DNA from: an uncultured Bacteroidia bacterium
Lineage (GTDB): Bacteria; Bacteroidota; Bacteroidia; Bacteroidales; F082
Assembly: GCA_902769875.1 (NCBI GenBank)
Contig: CACXQV010000013.1
Span: 1-64,000 of the forward strand
Direction: 5' to 3'
Length of the DNA stretch: 64,000 bases
Both the position numbers and the translations under genes were made by a program. Within the stretch, counting starts at the first letter, position 1. Every line of letters begins with the position of its first letter. Under the pieces are notes generated by a model. It did not search any database and was not told the DNA's origin. It saw nothing but the letters and a program-made list of their open reading frames with translations. Positions 33,136-38,615 of this stretch are shown piece after piece.

Positions 33136-34020
33136 CTACTGCCAGCCTTTTGGGAAACCCATAGCATTGACATCAATGGAATGATAATCGGAGAGCAATC
33201 GAATCAATTTGTCACGCATATCGTTTTGAGGGGAGATTACATCAAGGAAGTATTTGATGATACAAAGGTCAAAGTATATGCGGAGCGAATCTGTAGGGAG
33301 AGTCAACCACGCCCCGTTCAAATGGTTGGGCAGCATTGGGCGAATGGTATTCTGCTTGTTCCACACACGAGCATGGTGGCAACATGAGTTGCGTGTCAGC
33401 GTAACGATGGTGAGCCACGACTCGAAAGGTGCAACCTGCAATCCGAACTTCTGTGAAATGCTTTTCTTTATTCGAGGCACTTTGATGTTATTATAAATGT
33501 TTGTCATCACCCCAAAAGGTAGCACTTCGGCCAAAATCCAAGCTGGCGGATAGGCATCTGAATAAGACAGCTTGAAATGGACGATGAAGTCCTCCCGCGA
33601 GCGATTGATTTCGGCATCTATCAGCGTCATTGTATGTGCAAACTTGCTACGATTAGTGAAGTTGGCCTCATCGGTCATCCAGAAAGGATTGCCTGTTAGT
33701 TCGCTACCCGTGTTGACAATGGCACTACGAACAGCCACTTCAATTTTCTCAATTTCGTTAAAGATAAACAATCGCAGTTTCTTGTCGAAGCGATAGAGTG
33801 TCATCACTTGATCGAATGTAGCTCCTTGTTTGTATTGATGTTGCTCTTTGGGCATCTGAAGCAAGGGGTACATATAAGCAGACAAACGATAGTATCCAAT
33901 GTATTCGAGGTATCGCTCGGCTTTTGTCGGGGCGTCGATAGCAAGTCCCCTTGACCGCAACAAGTTTACGAGGTCATGTGGGTTAGTGTATGTTTTGTGA
34001 AAGGGAACTCGATTAGCCAT
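33136..34020 (-). CDS. Abi_2/AbiF-type abortive-infection HEPN protein
   Basis: A 294-residue protein; the start at 34020 (MANRVPFHKTYTNPHDLVNL) gives the family N-terminus. Signatures of the Abi_2 (AbiD/AbiF) family: RYLEYIGYYRLSAYMYPLL, LYRFDKKLRLFIFNEIEKIE and AVRSAIVN. The C-terminal half carries TRNSCCHHARVWN, an RX4H HEPN ribonuclease motif (Arg210, His215). Published work links AbiF-type proteins to a toxin held in check by a small RNA and to the ancestry of Cas13. Here a promoter and a hairpin leader sit directly upstream, fitting that model. Flanked by palindromic copies A and B. Confidence 0.88.
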   Translation of the reverse strand: MANRVPFHKTYTNPHDLVNLLRSRGLAIDAPTKAERYLEYIGYYRLSAYMYPLLQMPKEQHQYKQGATFDQVMTLYRFDKKLRLFIFNEIEKIEVAVRSAIVNTGSELTGNPFWMTDEANFTNRSKFAHTMTLIDAEINRSREDFIVHFKLSYSDAYPPAWILAEVLPFGVMTNIYNNIKVPRIKKSISQKFGLQVAPFESWLTIVTLTRNSCCHHARVWNKQNTIRPMLPNHLNGAWLTLPTDSLRIYFDLCIIKYFLDVISPQNDMRDKLIRLLSDYHSIDVNAMGFPKGWQ

Positions 34021-34038
34021 AGGTATAAAAACAAAACG

Positions 34039-34080
34039 ACCCGCACATTTGAGCATCGTTGAGAGGCTTGGCGGGTTCTA
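34039..34080 (-). ncRNA. Hairpin leader RNA upstream of the Abi_2 gene (candidate antitoxin RNA)
   Basis: On the minus strand the predicted transcript begins near 34080 and reads AACCCGCCAAGCC, then a loop, then ATGTGCGGGTCGTTTTG followed by TTTTT. ACCCGC (34076-34071 region) pairs with GCGGGT (34044-34039). The T-rich stretch after the stem could stop transcription, leaving a short RNA. Position and size fit the non-coding RNA reported with AbiF toxins, but conservation is not tested here. Confidence 0.5.
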
Positions 34081-34232: not shown

Positions 34233-34351
34233 CAGAATTGTTCGGCGCAATATGCTGAAAAAGTTGAGATTACGCAAGAAACCTATCTATTTTTCAGCAA
34301 CCCCATAAAACCATGTTTTTTAATTAAGTCATAATCAACAAGATTTTTGTG

Positions 34352-34359
34352 TATCTTTG
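34352..34359 (+). promoter_or_regulatory. -7 box for the methyltransferase leader RNA
   Basis: TATCTTTG followed by C, a full match to TAnnTTTG. The -33 region is poor. Transcription would begin near 34364, just before the first hairpin of the leader. Confidence 0.5.
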
Positions 34360-34363
34360 CACT

Positions 34364-34680
34364 CGACTACAGCTGAAAAGCACCAAAATGCAGGATGCTG
34401 TAGGTTTTATGGGAACATAGCAACATTTGCTATTTATTCGATAGAACGTCCTTGAAGTTTGGCCACTAAAAGACGTACTTCATAGAATAGAGAGCAGGTG
34501 TCCACTTGATACGTGGGCATCTGACTTGTCTGTGAAGTACGGGTTAGGCCAAACACCCAAGGACGTGGACGAGGAAGATTGTCCACGTTTTGTGTCTGTA
34601 TGACACAAGGGTGTCTGGCCTAACCGCACGTTTCTTGAAGATGTTCCCCAATTGACATGTCGAATCAAGAAACGTGGACA
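34364..34680 (+). ncRNA. Long structured leader RNA with mutually exclusive helices
   Basis: Hairpins in order: CTACAGC/GCTGTAG (34367-34373, 34397-34403); ATAGCAA/TTGCTAT (34417-34423, 34427-34433). Conformation 1: ACGTCCTTG/CAAGGACGT (34446-34454, 34558-34566) plus GTTTGGCC/GGCCAAAC (34457-34464, 34547-34554). Conformation 2: a 17-bp helix with one mismatch (34542-34558 with 34609-34625) closing two perfect hairpins, ACGTGGAC/GTCCACGT (34563-34570, 34581-34588) and TTGTGTC/GACACAA (34590-34596, 34602-34608). They share 34547-34566 so cannot coexist. Two inner helices (34475-34485 with 34530-34540; 34495-34505 with 34513-34523) fit either. A last helix CACGTTTCTTGA/TCAAGAAACGTG (34627-34638, 34665-34676) brackets the first ATG. 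It could be a riboswitch-like regulator or a functional RNA; no known class recognised. Confidence 0.6.
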
Positions 34681-35703
34681 AACATGGTGAAACGAACAGA
34701 ACGATTGCAAGGCAGCAAGCGGAAACGCGATGACGAATACTATACGCTGTTCAACGACATTGCTGCCGAAGTGAGCCTTTATCTGCCACAACTTCGTGGC
34801 AAACGCATCCTTTGTCCCTGCGATTGGGATGAAAGCTACAACGAGGAAATTGTGTACAAGGAGGAAGGCTACATGCTGGAACGAGACCTGTTTTCGCAGG
34901 AAGGATGCATCAAAAACATTGACATCGCCCAAACCCGTGAAAAGATAGAGAAACGTATGGATTTGGTGAAATGCCAATTCGTCTATTATCTGTTGGGGCA
35001 GGCCGAGGATTGGGGCATCCGCTCCATCAGCGTTAGCGGTTACAATCCTCAAACGGGTCAAGGTGTCCGCTTCCAAGATATTGACTATAGCCATTATGAT
35101 GTTATCATTACCAATCCTCCTTTTAGCCAATTTGATGAGTTTATCGACTTATTGGTGAAAAATGGCAAGCAGTTTCTTGTGATTGGCCCGCAAACGGCTC
35201 CAACAGAGAAAAGCATTATCCGACATTTCCGAGATGGCAACATCCGCATCGGATATCATTATCATTTGAGTGGATTCCGACGGCCTGACGGTTCAGTGTT
35301 GCCCAAACAGCATAACACCCCTCGTAGTTGCTTATGGTACACAAACATGCAAGTAAACGAGAACTCAAAAGAACTTATCCTTTCCTGTTCCTATGCAGAA
35401 AACCCAGAGAATTATCCCAAATATGTGAATTATAATGCCATCGATGTTCGTGCAACAGCAGAAATACCATACGACTATTATGAAGAAATGGGTGTTCCTA
35501 TTACCTTTTTGCAAAAATACAACCCCAAGCAATTTGAAATCATAGGAACAAGTGCAACTTTATGTAAGCCGCTCAAAGATTTCGTCGAAGAAGATGCTGT
35601 CTATACAGGAGGTGGTAACGGGCGTTTTTATCTTGCTCTTGGAAACAAACAATACAGAAGACTTTGGGACCGAATCGTCATCAAACGAAGAAAGGATCAA
35701 TAA
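34657..35703 (+). CDS. Adenine-specific DNA methyltransferase, EcoRI family
   Basis: A 348-residue N6-adenine methyltransferase. Family traits: KRKRDDEYYTLFNDIAAEV near the N-terminus, KRILCPCDWDES (49-60) in place of the usual motif I, and the catalytic IITNPPFSQFDEF (NPPF at 153-156). The later FLVIGPQTAPTEKSIIRHF and CLWYTN segments also fit. Two starts are possible: 34657, inside a helix of the leader, and 34684 (MVKRTERLQGS), just after it; folding could choose between them. The stop is 1 bp before the next start, so the pair is co-translated. Modifying DNA beside a DUF262-HNH nuclease suggests restriction-modification or modification-dependent defence. Confidence 0.87.
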   Translation: MSNQETWTNMVKRTERLQGSKRKRDDEYYTLFNDIAAEVSLYLPQLRGKRILCPCDWDESYNEEIVYKEEGYMLERDLFSQEGCIKNIDIAQTREKIEKRMDLVKCQFVYYLLGQAEDWGIRSISVSGYNPQTGQGVRFQDIDYSHYDVIITNPPFSQFDEFIDLLVKNGKQFLVIGPQTAPTEKSIIRHFRDGNIRIGYHYHLSGFRRPDGSVLPKQHNTPRSCLWYTNMQVNENSKELILSCSYAENPENYPKYVNYNAIDVRATAEIPYDYYEEMGVPITFLQKYNPKQFEIIGTSATLCKPLKDFVEEDAVYTGGGNGRFYLALGNKQYRRLWDRIVIKRRKDQ

Positions 35704-35704
35704 T

Positions 35705-36811
35705 ATGACTGTAAAAGAACTATACGAAAAAGTTGAAAATGGCGACATTATCAGCGACATTGAGTTGCAACGCGCCATCGTGTATGACGATGAAAAGCAA
35801 TCGCTTGTCATCGATAGTCTTGACCACGATATACCTTTGCCCGCTTTTTATATGTGGGACAACAATGAAACAGGAAAACTCGAAGTGCTTGACGGCAAGC
35901 AACGCATTGAGGCTATCAAGAAGTTCAAGCACAACAATCTGAAATATCAGGGCAAGATATGGAAAGCCTTTGCCGATGATGCAACCAACTTTCAGCAAAG
36001 ATTTGACTCAAAAGAACTTACCATAATTATCTGTGGCGGCTCGGAAGAGAAAAAGCGTGAAATTTTCAAGCGTATCAATACGTTAGGTGTTCCACTATCG
36101 AAATATGAAGTACTCAATGGATTATATCACGGTGAGTATTTGGAAGGCCTAAGCGCCTATTTTCTGAACGATGCCAATGTAAGGAAAGTCCTTCCCAATG
36201 ATAGCATTGACCGAGGCAACAACAAATATCGGCTGTTAGAGTATTTATATTATGTGCGTCACAACGGTGTTTTCCCAAAATCGGGCGAACTTGATGATTA
36301 TGTGCAGAAAAACAAAGATTGTTCATTCAACGACGAAATAAAGAAGATAAAGCCTTATATAAGTTTCATAAGGGACGTGTTCGGAGATGCTTCAAAGATT
36401 TCCCCCACTTTGAAATTCAAATTGTCATACAAGTACTTAAAAGACCGTGCAATATGGCTGCAACACAAAGATGACATTTGCAAAGATTGCAATGCCTTTA
36501 TCAAAAGCGAAGGTTATAAACTATCGGTAACAAAAGAGGCTGACATTGAAGCCATGATCTTGGGAATAGTTGGCAATGTTCGCGTGGATCCCAAAAGGCT
36601 GTTCACGGCGGACGATAAGCAACAGTTATTATCAAAAAAAGAACAAGACGAGACCGGGAAATACGAATGTGATGAATGTCACCAACACTTCTATGCTGAT
36701 GAACTGACTGTTGATCATATTAAACCTTGGAGTCTTGGTGGAAGAACCGTTCTTTCAAATGCAAAACTATTATGCAGGGCATGTAATAGCAGATTAGGAA
36801 ACAAGAAGTGA
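35705..36811 (+). CDS. DUF262-HNH nuclease, partner of the methyltransferase
   Basis: A 368-residue protein; the start at 35705 lies 1 bp after the methyltransferase stop, and the longer frame is overlap. Residues 10-110 are a DUF262 (ParB-like) domain: SDIELQRAIVYDDEKQSLVI and VLDGKQRIEAIKKF, where DGKQR (63-67) replaces the common DGQQR. The middle is helical. Residues 320-368 are an HNH domain with two CxxC zinc knuckles (Cys322/325, Cys357/360), Asp337-His338 and Asn352. DUF262-HNH proteins include GmrSD and SspE, which sense DNA modification through DUF262. In this protein the HNH is classical rather than DUF1524. Confidence 0.85.
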   Translation: MTVKELYEKVENGDIISDIELQRAIVYDDEKQSLVIDSLDHDIPLPAFYMWDNNETGKLEVLDGKQRIEAIKKFKHNNLKYQGKIWKAFADDATNFQQRFDSKELTIIICGGSEEKKREIFKRINTLGVPLSKYEVLNGLYHGEYLEGLSAYFLNDANVRKVLPNDSIDRGNNKYRLLEYLYYVRHNGVFPKSGELDDYVQKNKDCSFNDEIKKIKPYISFIRDVFGDASKISPTLKFKLSYKYLKDRAIWLQHKDDICKDCNAFIKSEGYKLSVTKEADIEAMILGIVGNVRVDPKRLFTADDKQQLLSKKEQDETGKYECDECHQHFYADELTVDHIKPWSLGGRTVLSNAKLLCRACNSRLGNKK

Positions 36812-36880
36812 GACAACCTGAAACAAAGTAACATCTGATTATCAACACATTAATTATCCAAATCGGATACAGAAACTGTA

Positions 36881-37130: not shown

Positions 37131-37154
37131 CGGCGAAAACAATTGCACAAAACA

Positions 37155-38615
37155 ATGAAATACAAGAATATTATTGGAAGGGAAACAGAAATAGCCACAC
37201 TCGAAAGGTTGTATAAATCCCAGAAGTCCGAATTTGTGGCCATATATGGACGCAGACGCATCGGGAAGTCGTATCTTGTCAGTGAAGTTTATGGCAAGAA
37301 AATTCTTTTTTCAGCCGTGGGAACATACATCAAAGACGACGACAAAAGCAACGAAACCTATCGCCAACTGCAATTGGACCATTTTTTTGATTCGCTTTTG
37401 CTGGCTGGGCTTGAGGCAAATACACCCAAACCTACTTGCTGGCGCGAAGCGTTTCTGTTGTTGCGAAGACTGCTTGAAAAATCTCGCGCACGCCGCAAAA
37501 TCATCCTAATGGACGAGTTGCCTTGGATGGCTGGGCCCCAATCGTCGGAAATGATATCGGAATTGGGCTATTTCTGGAATTCGTGGGCTGATCGCCAGCG
37601 CAATGTCGTTCTGGTGGTTTGCGGATCGGCTACAAGTTGGATGCTCGACAATGTGATTCACGATTACGGTGGCTTGCATGGACGACTAACCGAAACCATT
37701 CGGTTGGCGCCTTTCACTTTGGCAGAATGTGAAAAATATTATCGGAAAAACGGATTTAGGCTGTCGCGTTATGAGATGTGTGTATGCTATATGGCATTGG
37801 GCGGCATTCCTTTTTATTTGGACAAACTAAGGAATAACTTGACAATCACACAAAACATCGACAATATCTTTTTTTCCGACGAACAGATTCATCAGGAGTT
37901 CAAGGATGTGTACACCGGGCTATATTCCAGCAAAGAAAGATACATGGATGTTGTGAAAGCCATCGGAAGCCAATTTTATGGGATGACCCAATCGGAAATC
38001 AGCAAGGCTGTTGAAGTGAAAAGCGGTGGCACATTGAGCAATTTGCTGGATAACTTGAAAGAATCGGGAATCATCCGCGAATATCCCCGCTACGGCAATC
38101 AGCGTGTTGAAACCGTCTATCAGTTGAAAGACTTTTTCTCGCTTTTTTACCTGCGTTTTGTGAACAGCAGGCAAGCTAAAAAAGGACAATGGAATTCGCT
38201 TCATAGGACACCAGCTTTCTACACATGGGCCGGCGACACCTTTGAATTGTTATGTGTTGAGCATTTGCCACAACTTCAATCCGCTTTGCGCATTGTTTCA
38301 ATTGACAGAAACTATTGTTGGAGAGGAAAAACCTCAGAAGGCAAGGGTGCCCAGATTGACTTATTGTTGGAAAGCAAAGCAAGCCGTACCGACTATGTGT
38401 GTGAAATGAAATTCACAATGGGGAAATACACCATATCCGCTGACTATGAAATAGATTTGAATGCCAAAATGGATGCTTTTTCTGAAAGTAAAATGCACAC
38501 CAAGACACATAGTATTCAATTGGTGATGCTGACAACAATGGGTATTGCTCAAGGCGAGCATTCTGGTGTCGTTAATCAATCCATTGTCATGGACGACTTG
38601 TTCCGAATCGGGTAG
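37155..38615 (+). CDS. AAA ATPase with C-terminal DUF234 nuclease-like domain
   Basis: A 486-residue protein read from ATG 37155 (MKYKNIIGRETEIATLERLY), the family start. Walker A is YGRRRIGKS (31-39), Walker B is KIILMDELPWM, and the sensor is VVLVVCGSATSWM. The middle carries a winged-helix segment (GMTQSEISKAVEVKSGGTLSNLLDNLKESGII). The C-terminus has a PD-(D/E)xK-like motif: GAQIDLLLE followed by DYVCEMKFT. This family (ATPase_2 plus DUF234) is very abundant in Bacteroidales, often in many copies and next to repeats; its role is unproven, with defence or mobile-element links suggested. It is flanked by direct repeats, with a truncated paralogue in the opposite direction. Confidence 0.88.
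   Translation: MKYKNIIGRETEIATLERLYKSQKSEFVAIYGRRRIGKSYLVSEVYGKKILFSAVGTYIKDDDKSNETYRQLQLDHFFDSLLLAGLEANTPKPTCWREAFLLLRRLLEKSRARRKIILMDELPWMAGPQSSEMISELGYFWNSWADRQRNVVLVVCGSATSWMLDNVIHDYGGLHGRLTETIRLAPFTLAECEKYYRKNGFRLSRYEMCVCYMALGGIPFYLDKLRNNLTITQNIDNIFFSDEQIHQEFKDVYTGLYSSKERYMDVVKAIGSQFYGMTQSEISKAVEVKSGGTLSNLLDNLKESGIIREYPRYGNQRVETVYQLKDFFSLFYLRFVNSRQAKKGQWNSLHRTPAFYTWAGDTFELLCVEHLPQLQSALRIVSIDRNYCWRGKTSEGKGAQIDLLLESKASRTDYVCEMKFTMGKYTISADYEIDLNAKMDAFSESKMHTKTHSIQLVMLTTMGIAQGEHSGVVNQSIVMDDLFRIG

Follow-up and report, generated by a model that had tools for sequence, protein, structure and literature searches.

A large, apparently undescribed family of structured leader RNAs in Bacteroidota, found ahead of DNA-modification and other genes

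The leader of an EcoRI-type adenine DNA methyltransferase gene in the window, by which we mean the whole 64,000-nucleotide stretch of DNA from an uncultured Bacteroidia bacterium analysed here, appears from sequence comparison to be one copy of a large and apparently undescribed RNA leader family in Bacteroidota. We believe that the family probably consists of cis-acting, riboswitch-like attenuator RNAs and is not specific to EcoRI-type methyltransferases. Comparison of the copies brought out conserved helices, a pseudoknot, a characteristic promoter-box position, a U-run and, in roughly half the copies that precede genes lacking a signal peptide, a helix (set 2) that excludes another (set 1). 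Set 1 is predicted to form before set 2 in computed folds. We infer that the RNA would terminate transcription in the cell and regulate the gene behind it in response to a ligand or factor, and that a hairpin near the start codon may lower translation.

The initial annotation had described a long structured leader with mutually exclusive helices behind a -7 box, a reading which the comparative data support. All features of the leader lie on the forward strand. The box, TATCTTTG, is of the TAnnTTTG type and was found at 34352..34359. A 5′ hairpin (UAGCAA-CAU-UUGCUA) occupies 34418..34432, followed by the 5′ strand of the pseudoknot (UUAUUCG, 34434..34440), which was recognised by a strand-swap test over representative copies; its 3′ strand (GAAUAG, 34485..34490) consists in relatives of bases common to the inner stem. 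Set 1 joins 34446-34454 to 34558-34566 and 34457-34464 to 34547-34554, each part being 100% paired, and its 5′ strand (helices P2a and P2b, 34446..34464) is indicated by repeats, covariation, strand swapping and folding alike. The inner stem P2c (34474-34486/34529-34541) is 92% paired, and the apical hairpin P2d (34495..34523) is seen in the alignment of close homologues and in a G-U excess over 90 copies. The strand at 34542..34566 is shared: 34547-34554 and 34558-34566 take part in set 1, and 34542-34558 pairs with 34609-34625 to form set 2 (94% paired), whose 3′ strand (34609..34625) is indicated by repeats, by folding and by strand-swap specificity before genes without a signal peptide. 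A terminator-like hairpin, P3, lies at 34563-34588 (arms 34563-34570/34581-34588), and the U-rich tract after it (34588..34595), defined by the T count across 90 copies, is weak in the window copy (UUUUGUGU). The last element is a 12-bp hairpin, 100% paired (34627-34638/34665-34676), which ends 7 nt before the ATG at 34684. By eye, hairpins like the 5′ one (UAGCGUUUGCUA) stand ahead of the core in many copies, and hairpins resembling the final one precede the ATG in some relatives.

The helices proposed initially were recovered both in the sequence and in a repeat search of the window, and the stability of the fold is likewise far beyond that of shuffled sequences. For positions 34352-34700 the minimum free energy of the RNA is -147.5 kcal/mol compared with -90.0 ± 5.0 in 100 dinucleotide shuffles (z -11.5), none of which was as good. 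Sets 1 and 2 exclude each other, as first suggested, with bases 34547-34554 and 34558 common to both. When growing transcripts from 34364 were folded, the predicted optimal fold contained only 8 of the 17 bp of set 1 in the transcript ending at 34560, 15 of 17 at the three ends tried between 34578 and 34606, and set 2 (16 of 17 bp) at the five ends tried between 34626 and 34720. Constrained folds to 34690 gave -128.2 kcal/mol with set 1 and -142.9 with set 2, which is ahead by 14.7 kcal/mol.

The final 12-bp helix was also present as described; what needs amending is the start codon. Translation probably starts at 34684 rather than 34657, because 8 of 10 homologous methyltransferases align only from residue 10, the counterpart of 34684 (those of L034 and L044 align from residue 3); the hairpin therefore probably precedes the start by 7 nt and does not enclose it. 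Several other candidate elements were discarded by eye: a leader peptide, since neither L035 nor L037 has a counterpart of the short ORF at 34388-34420, and the repeats 34579-34590/34670-34681 (perfect) and 34302-34312/34403-34413, neither of which is conserved among homologues. A pairing of 34411-34418 with 34641-34648 is partly conserved, in a few homologues only.

The methyltransferase gene (34684..35703, alternative start 34657; PF13651, E 1.4e-56) is followed by a gene for a GmrSD_N (DUF262)-HNH protein (35705..36811; PF03235, PF01844), both on the forward strand. The latter is presumably the restriction enzyme partner, and the two plausibly make up a type II restriction-modification pair. 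Promoter, RNA and both genes form a cassette on the same strand whose approximate extent, 34277..36827, is given by its match to L033, where DNA identity is 95.5% over 2551 nt from 34277 and the methyltransferase is 100% identical. There the cassette stands at another site: the DNA before it differs, and a 6000-nt query had no match beyond the cassette. Just downstream of the cassette in the window lies an ATPase gene (37149-38615, forward strand) of the PADLOC candidate family PDC-S27 (E 1.1e-164).

A scan of genome contigs for the methyltransferase returned 12 loci (L033-L044). The same leader precedes methyltransferases of 80-83% identity at ten of them (L034-L042 and L044), which come from Prevotella, Bacteroidales, Bacteroidaceae or Bacteroidetes, several from ruminants; L035, L036 and L041 are almost identical to one another. 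Two covariance models were built, R1 from nine of the leaders and R2 from 25 diverse copies. R2 matches even the divergent leader of L037, at 68.7 bits. The leader is absent, with no R2 match, from a spirochaete locus (L043) with a methyltransferase of 46% identity and from a viral contig (L002) with one of 62%. The gene pair on L002 is related to that of the window (62% for the methyltransferase, 57% for the GmrSD-HNH protein) and has a promoter box of its own. Among 29 distant order-level EcoRI-type loci (L004-L032), R2 matches occur before four (L005, L007, L019 and L030) and are absent from the other 25, a few of which have little upstream DNA. At L005 a first copy lies at 868-1025 and, by eye, a second similar one follows in tandem from about 1240 onward, before the EcoRI-type methyltransferase.

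A covariance-model search upstream of EcoRI-family methyltransferases, which the initial annotation had advised, found homologous leaders, and these differ by many compensatory changes; the lack of such changes, named there as evidence to the contrary, was not seen. The alignment A3 comprises nine leaders, 8 of them distinct, with L033, L041 and the divergent L037 left out. In it P1, P2a, P2b, P2c, P2d and P3 are paired in 99.3% of cells, and nine pairs are changed on both sides, seven of them within P2c (7 of its 13 pairs); P3 is invariant. The covariation score is 0.220 compared with 0.120 for shuffled alignments, none of 500 shuffles reaching it, and when the structure was slid along the alignment the covariation was at most 0.046.

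For the family as a whole we aligned 90 copies (A7, without the duplicates L045, L046, L080 and L082 and without L033, L036 and L041) and chose 74 representatives less than 75% identical to each other. The pairing energy of each copy's own strands was then compared with that of strands exchanged between copies. Set 1 beats the mean swap in all 74 representatives (-11.8 vs -6.2 kcal/mol), the inner stem in 66 (-7.9 vs -4.9) and the pseudoknot joining the 5′ segment to the inner stem in 65 (-9.6 vs -5.9), whereas in a control that paired the shared strand with upstream DNA (n=73) own and swapped strands did not differ (p 0.63). Pseudoknot and inner stem are both strong in 52 of the 74, and in 50 of these 52 they compete for two or more bases (median 7). 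On these pairing energies, pseudoknot and inner stem appear to be a second exclusive pair beside sets 1 and 2; the initial layout, right as to the exchange between the sets, did not contain this one.

The pattern of mismatches bears on the strand in which the structure acts. Over the 90 copies, G-U pairs and A-C mismatches number 80 and 10 in P1, 23 and 9 in P2a, 5 and 3 in P2b, 81 and 15 in P2c, and 164 and 6 in P2d. The G-U excess in P2a, P2c and P2d is as expected for an RNA of the gene's strand. It is absent from P3 (40 vs 49 A-C), in which the alignment seems loose; across the family, only 75% of the P1 cells are paired. A DNA element without any RNA, such as a recombination site, folded single-strand DNA or a mobile repeat, might be suspected from the many copies, the occurrence of the cassette at different sites and the position of several copies near contig ends. 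We regard this as very improbable given the gene-strand bias in those three helices, though not in P3, and the fairly fixed distance of a promoter box.

R1 found further copies before two distant methyltransferases (L019 and L005) and matches in 27 of 173 genomes of the taxonomic family, the window's genome included. Owing to the nearly palindromic stem it also hits some leaders on their opposite strand, at 22-34 bits, and weak R1 hits alone therefore prove little. R2, by comparison, gives one match at each of the 90 A7 loci and none on the opposite strand. It finds the RNA in 73 of 295 Bacteroidales genomes (54 of 183 genera), with a highest count of at least 10 copies per genome when 10 candidates were scored for each, and in 19 of 395 genomes (11 of 171 genera) across the phylum with 7 candidates scored; both samples include the window's genome. 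That genome has R2 matches at 15 places, and the completely sequenced Prevotella communis E15-14 at six. As to carriage by phages or plasmids, the window leader had no blastn match, and among viral contigs collected with an unspecific 15-base pattern (80 loci listed, 700,120 bases) the best R2 score was 18 bits (E 0.19). Four copies (L059, L064, L066 and L071) form a subgroup with a shorter R1 match in which P1 and P3 were not aligned by R1; by eye, they precede small HTH-like or other genes.

Promoter boxes and U-runs are motif matches here, and the transcript starts and ends they mark are predictions. Within the 240 nt ahead of the core, 58 of 72 copies have a TAnnTTTG box, where mononucleotide shuffles give an expectation of 10.0, and the nearest such box is a median 86 nt from the core. 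Between core and ATG a box occurs in only 1 of 68 copies. As far as motifs tell, a promoter stands upstream of the RNA and almost none between RNA and gene, which is the arrangement of a cis-regulatory leader. The end of the core has a median of 6 T in 8 positions over the 90 copies against a background of 2.1, so that across the family a hairpin is followed by a U-run as in attenuators with intrinsic terminators, weakly in the window copy. A generic terminator scan of the window left P3 unflagged; the P3 loop has 10 nt and the scan allows 8.

Promoter box, U-run, gene position and folding order fit an attenuator whose core is dismantled after read-through. According to this model, the promoter box about 90 nt ahead of the core would drive transcription, and set 1, the inner stem, the pseudoknot into the inner stem and the hairpin with its U-run would then arise. 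With set 1 standing, hairpin and U-run could end transcription. If the polymerase reads through, the next strand would displace the 5′ strand of set 1 and pair with its 3′ strand to give set 2. In the mRNA that results from read-through the core would thereby be taken apart, and another hairpin would then form directly ahead of the start codon. How often the polymerase reads through, and with it the expression of the gene behind the RNA, would depend on a signal acting on the pseudoknotted core. Because its 3′ strand comes after the U-run, set 2 cannot act on the first decision; it might serve as a latch or have a translational role.

Set 2 was examined by strand swapping in 72 representatives, leaving out L066, which has no downstream DNA. 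Genes were divided with a home-made hydrophobicity rule for signal peptides, which misjudges some of them, such as the Peptidase C10 gene of L116. Before genes without a signal-peptide-like start (n=37), set 2 has an energy of -16.6 with its own strands and -11.8 when swapped, and is better in 30 of 37 (p 5e-7), whereas before signal-peptide genes (n=31) it is unspecific (better in 15, p 0.92). A rank of 0.05 or below is reached by 16 of the 37 and 2 of the 31, and a rank of 0.1 by 19 and 2 (Fisher p 5.6e-5), which leaves 18 of the 37 with no clear set 2 at rank 0.1. Controls within the 37 gave p 0.15 for the set 1 5′ strand against downstream DNA and p 0.92 for the shared strand against upstream DNA, though four rank at 0.05 in the latter. 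In the 19 copies where it is strong, set 2 takes a median fraction of 0.875 of the shared-strand bases of set 1; conserved, mutually exclusive helices of this kind, as the strand-swap tests reveal them, belong to intrinsic-terminator attenuators. From these comparisons the family appears to have two subtypes, one with set 2 (roughly half of those preceding genes that lack a signal peptide) and one without. Set 2 also ranks high before a few non-restriction genes, for instance L088 (rank 0.01).

Folding near the start codon differs between the same groups, with a median of -7.0 kcal/mol before genes without a signal peptide (n=28) and -4.4 before the others (n=29; p 0.001). Together with the perfect 12-bp hairpin 7 nt before the window's start, this difference might speak for a translational switch or mRNA stabiliser, in which read-through is constitutive and the exchange of sets 1 and 2 changes ribosome access or decay through the start-codon hairpin. 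We hold this explanation to be quite unlikely. Start-proximal folding is modest overall (median z -0.6 and about 0 in the two groups), so a start hairpin is not general, unlike the U-run, which nearly is; moreover, sets 1 and 2 do not overlap the start hairpin of the window.

The genes behind the RNA are diverse. An ORF of at least 60 residues on the same strand begins between -10 and +260 nt from the RNA end at 58 of 70 loci (L047-L116), and the other 12 have no qualifying one. Pfam families were tallied for 57 of the 58 proteins, L058 being left out. Counts overlap, and among the best 25 of 47 families they include N6_Mtase 6, MmeI_Mtase 4, PLDc_2 3, N6_N4_Mtase, ResIII, SNF2 and Eco57I 2 each, and EcoRI_methylase, D12 and HSDR_N_2 1 each; secreted-protein families (LRR, Fib_succ_major, Peptidase C10, OmpH) occur as well. 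Among the PADLOC matches listed, nearly all are methyltransferases of types I, II, IIG and III, and 9 of 10 selected downstream proteins scanned singly match methyltransferase, type IIG or defence-helicase models. Examples that are neither secreted nor linked to restriction are L076 and L077 (no Pfam match), L088 (HAD-like) and L118 (weakly a response regulator). In P. communis E15-14, three of the six copies precede proteins matching DNA-methyltransferase models. The genes behind the six encode an EcoRI methylase, an SNF2/ResIII helicase, an N6_N4 methylase, a protein without a Pfam match (L249), a D12 methylase followed by a second one, and a leucine-rich-repeat protein. In the window's genome, three of ten downstream proteins are an N6_N4 methylase (L105), a PLD-SNF2 protein (L106) and an N6 methylase (L072); another is a Peptidase C10 (L116) and six have no Pfam match. 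This genome has 12 N6_Mtase and 4 N6_N4_Mtase matches, of which only those on contigs C12 and C101 stand behind the RNA; the RNA is carried by only some restriction genes. By eye, three copies from other taxonomic families of the class (L117, L120 and L121) precede or adjoin similar secreted proteins, and these neighbours share a YEYFD..GNM.GY-like stretch.

As an upstream control we took the longest ORF of at least 100 residues, whichever its strand, within 1500 nt of the RNA; 84 of 89 loci had one. With such a choice of ORF the control is imperfectly matched to the downstream census. It was compared by Pfam tally, the PADLOC tally being set aside. Among the families listed for the 84 neighbours (best 25 of 99), no DNA methyltransferase family has two or more members. 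The commonest neighbours listed are YhcG and DUF1016 nucleases (6 each of 84), with Fic 3 and AbiEii 2, and some copies therefore lie in defence-rich regions.

Nuclease and toxin-antitoxin genes among these neighbours, the terminator-like end and the presence of several copies per genome would suit a separate small RNA that ends at the U-run and acts in trans, with the downstream gene a mere neighbour or expressed by leaky read-through. Such an RNA is unlikely in our view: a same-strand ORF follows closely at most loci and is almost never preceded by a box of its own, set 2 and the start-proximal hairpin come only after the U-run, and the type of gene correlates with set 2. The assignment of the window's RNA as the leader of an adenine methyltransferase gene is right here and at the ten homologous loci but too narrow for the family, which is not an EcoRI-methyltransferase leader as such, since many unrelated genes have this RNA before them. 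There are methyltransferases that repress their own genes, and a private autoregulation in which the enzyme binds its own leader could be imagined on that ground; with the same RNA before unrelated enzymes and secreted proteins it is hardly conceivable. The diverse gene set points to no particular ligand or factor for the attenuator that we favour.

We put forward a wider picture tentatively, as possible but somewhat short of probable: a phylum-wide RNA regulon of mobile DNA-modification genes in Bacteroidota, in which type I, II, IIG and III systems and helicases of defence type would have recruited one leader class independently, as would secreted proteins with a second subtype that lacks set 2, and in which read-through would dismantle the sensor and make the transcriptional decision one-way. 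Protein controllers are the main explanation of how mobile restriction-modification systems spare a new host, and C (controller) proteins are regulators of type II systems. Like them, the leader would time or set the expression of a mobile restriction-modification operon; unlike them, it is an RNA and not a DNA-binding protein, and one family stands before type I, II, IIG and III systems. If the picture is true, the leader would be the RNA equivalent of a C protein and would delay or tune restriction once the genes have been transferred, or in response to a common cell signal. A single RNA class across unrelated systems points to such a signal, and it would offer another route to sparing the host in a major gut and rumen phylum. 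The large orphan family is in any case a candidate addition to Rfam.

With regard to known classes, the initial statement that no described RNA has this layout agrees with Rfam 15, in which no family reaches its gathering score over the leader in the window, at eight homologous loci or at twenty family loci. At loose thresholds the window leader has only weak matches to eukaryotic families, and L249 has a weak STnc420 match on the opposite strand at the RNA edge. DUF3800-I RNA (RF02969), the one bacterial family to match over the core at relaxed thresholds, was considered and rejected: it scores 34.9 bits over the core of L075, below its gathering score of 44.2, matches at relaxed thresholds in one of 28 loci, being unlisted for the other 27 including the window, and aligns there to helices that differ from set 1. 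Judging from Rfam only, the leader is presumably absent from a 2017 survey that reportedly comprises 224 motifs. Riboswitches and transcription attenuators with intrinsic terminators, such as T-box and yybP-ykoY, resemble it in the 5′ leader position, the conserved pseudoknotted core, the exclusive helices, the U-run hairpin and the occurrence of several copies per genome before diverse genes. The leader departs from them in that its competing set 2 strand follows the terminator-like hairpin and would take the core apart upon read-through, in its gene set of restriction-modification, secreted and other proteins, and in the lack of an Rfam match at gathering score. We therefore place the RNA as a new family among structured cis-regulatory leaders, unusual for its gene set and for the predicted strand exchange past the terminator-like hairpin. 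No description of it was found in the literature searched, which included parts of PMC2864571, PMC11109978, PMC7366714 and PMC6429828.

The only match in the window at an Rfam gathering score is abiF RNA (RF03085) at 34039-34075 on the reverse strand, at the start of an Abi_2/AbiD-like gene (33136-34056, reverse strand) that stands back to back with the leader. Like the leader, abiF RNA is a structured RNA beside a phage-defence gene, here about 280 nt upstream; it differs as a 37-nt motif on the other strand, before AbiF, and its model does not match the leader. At two loci a DUF805b RNA comes after the leader (L074:1731-1765, 39.7 bits; L050:1688-1722, 22.1 bits, below the cut-off), so two cis-RNAs may stand in series.
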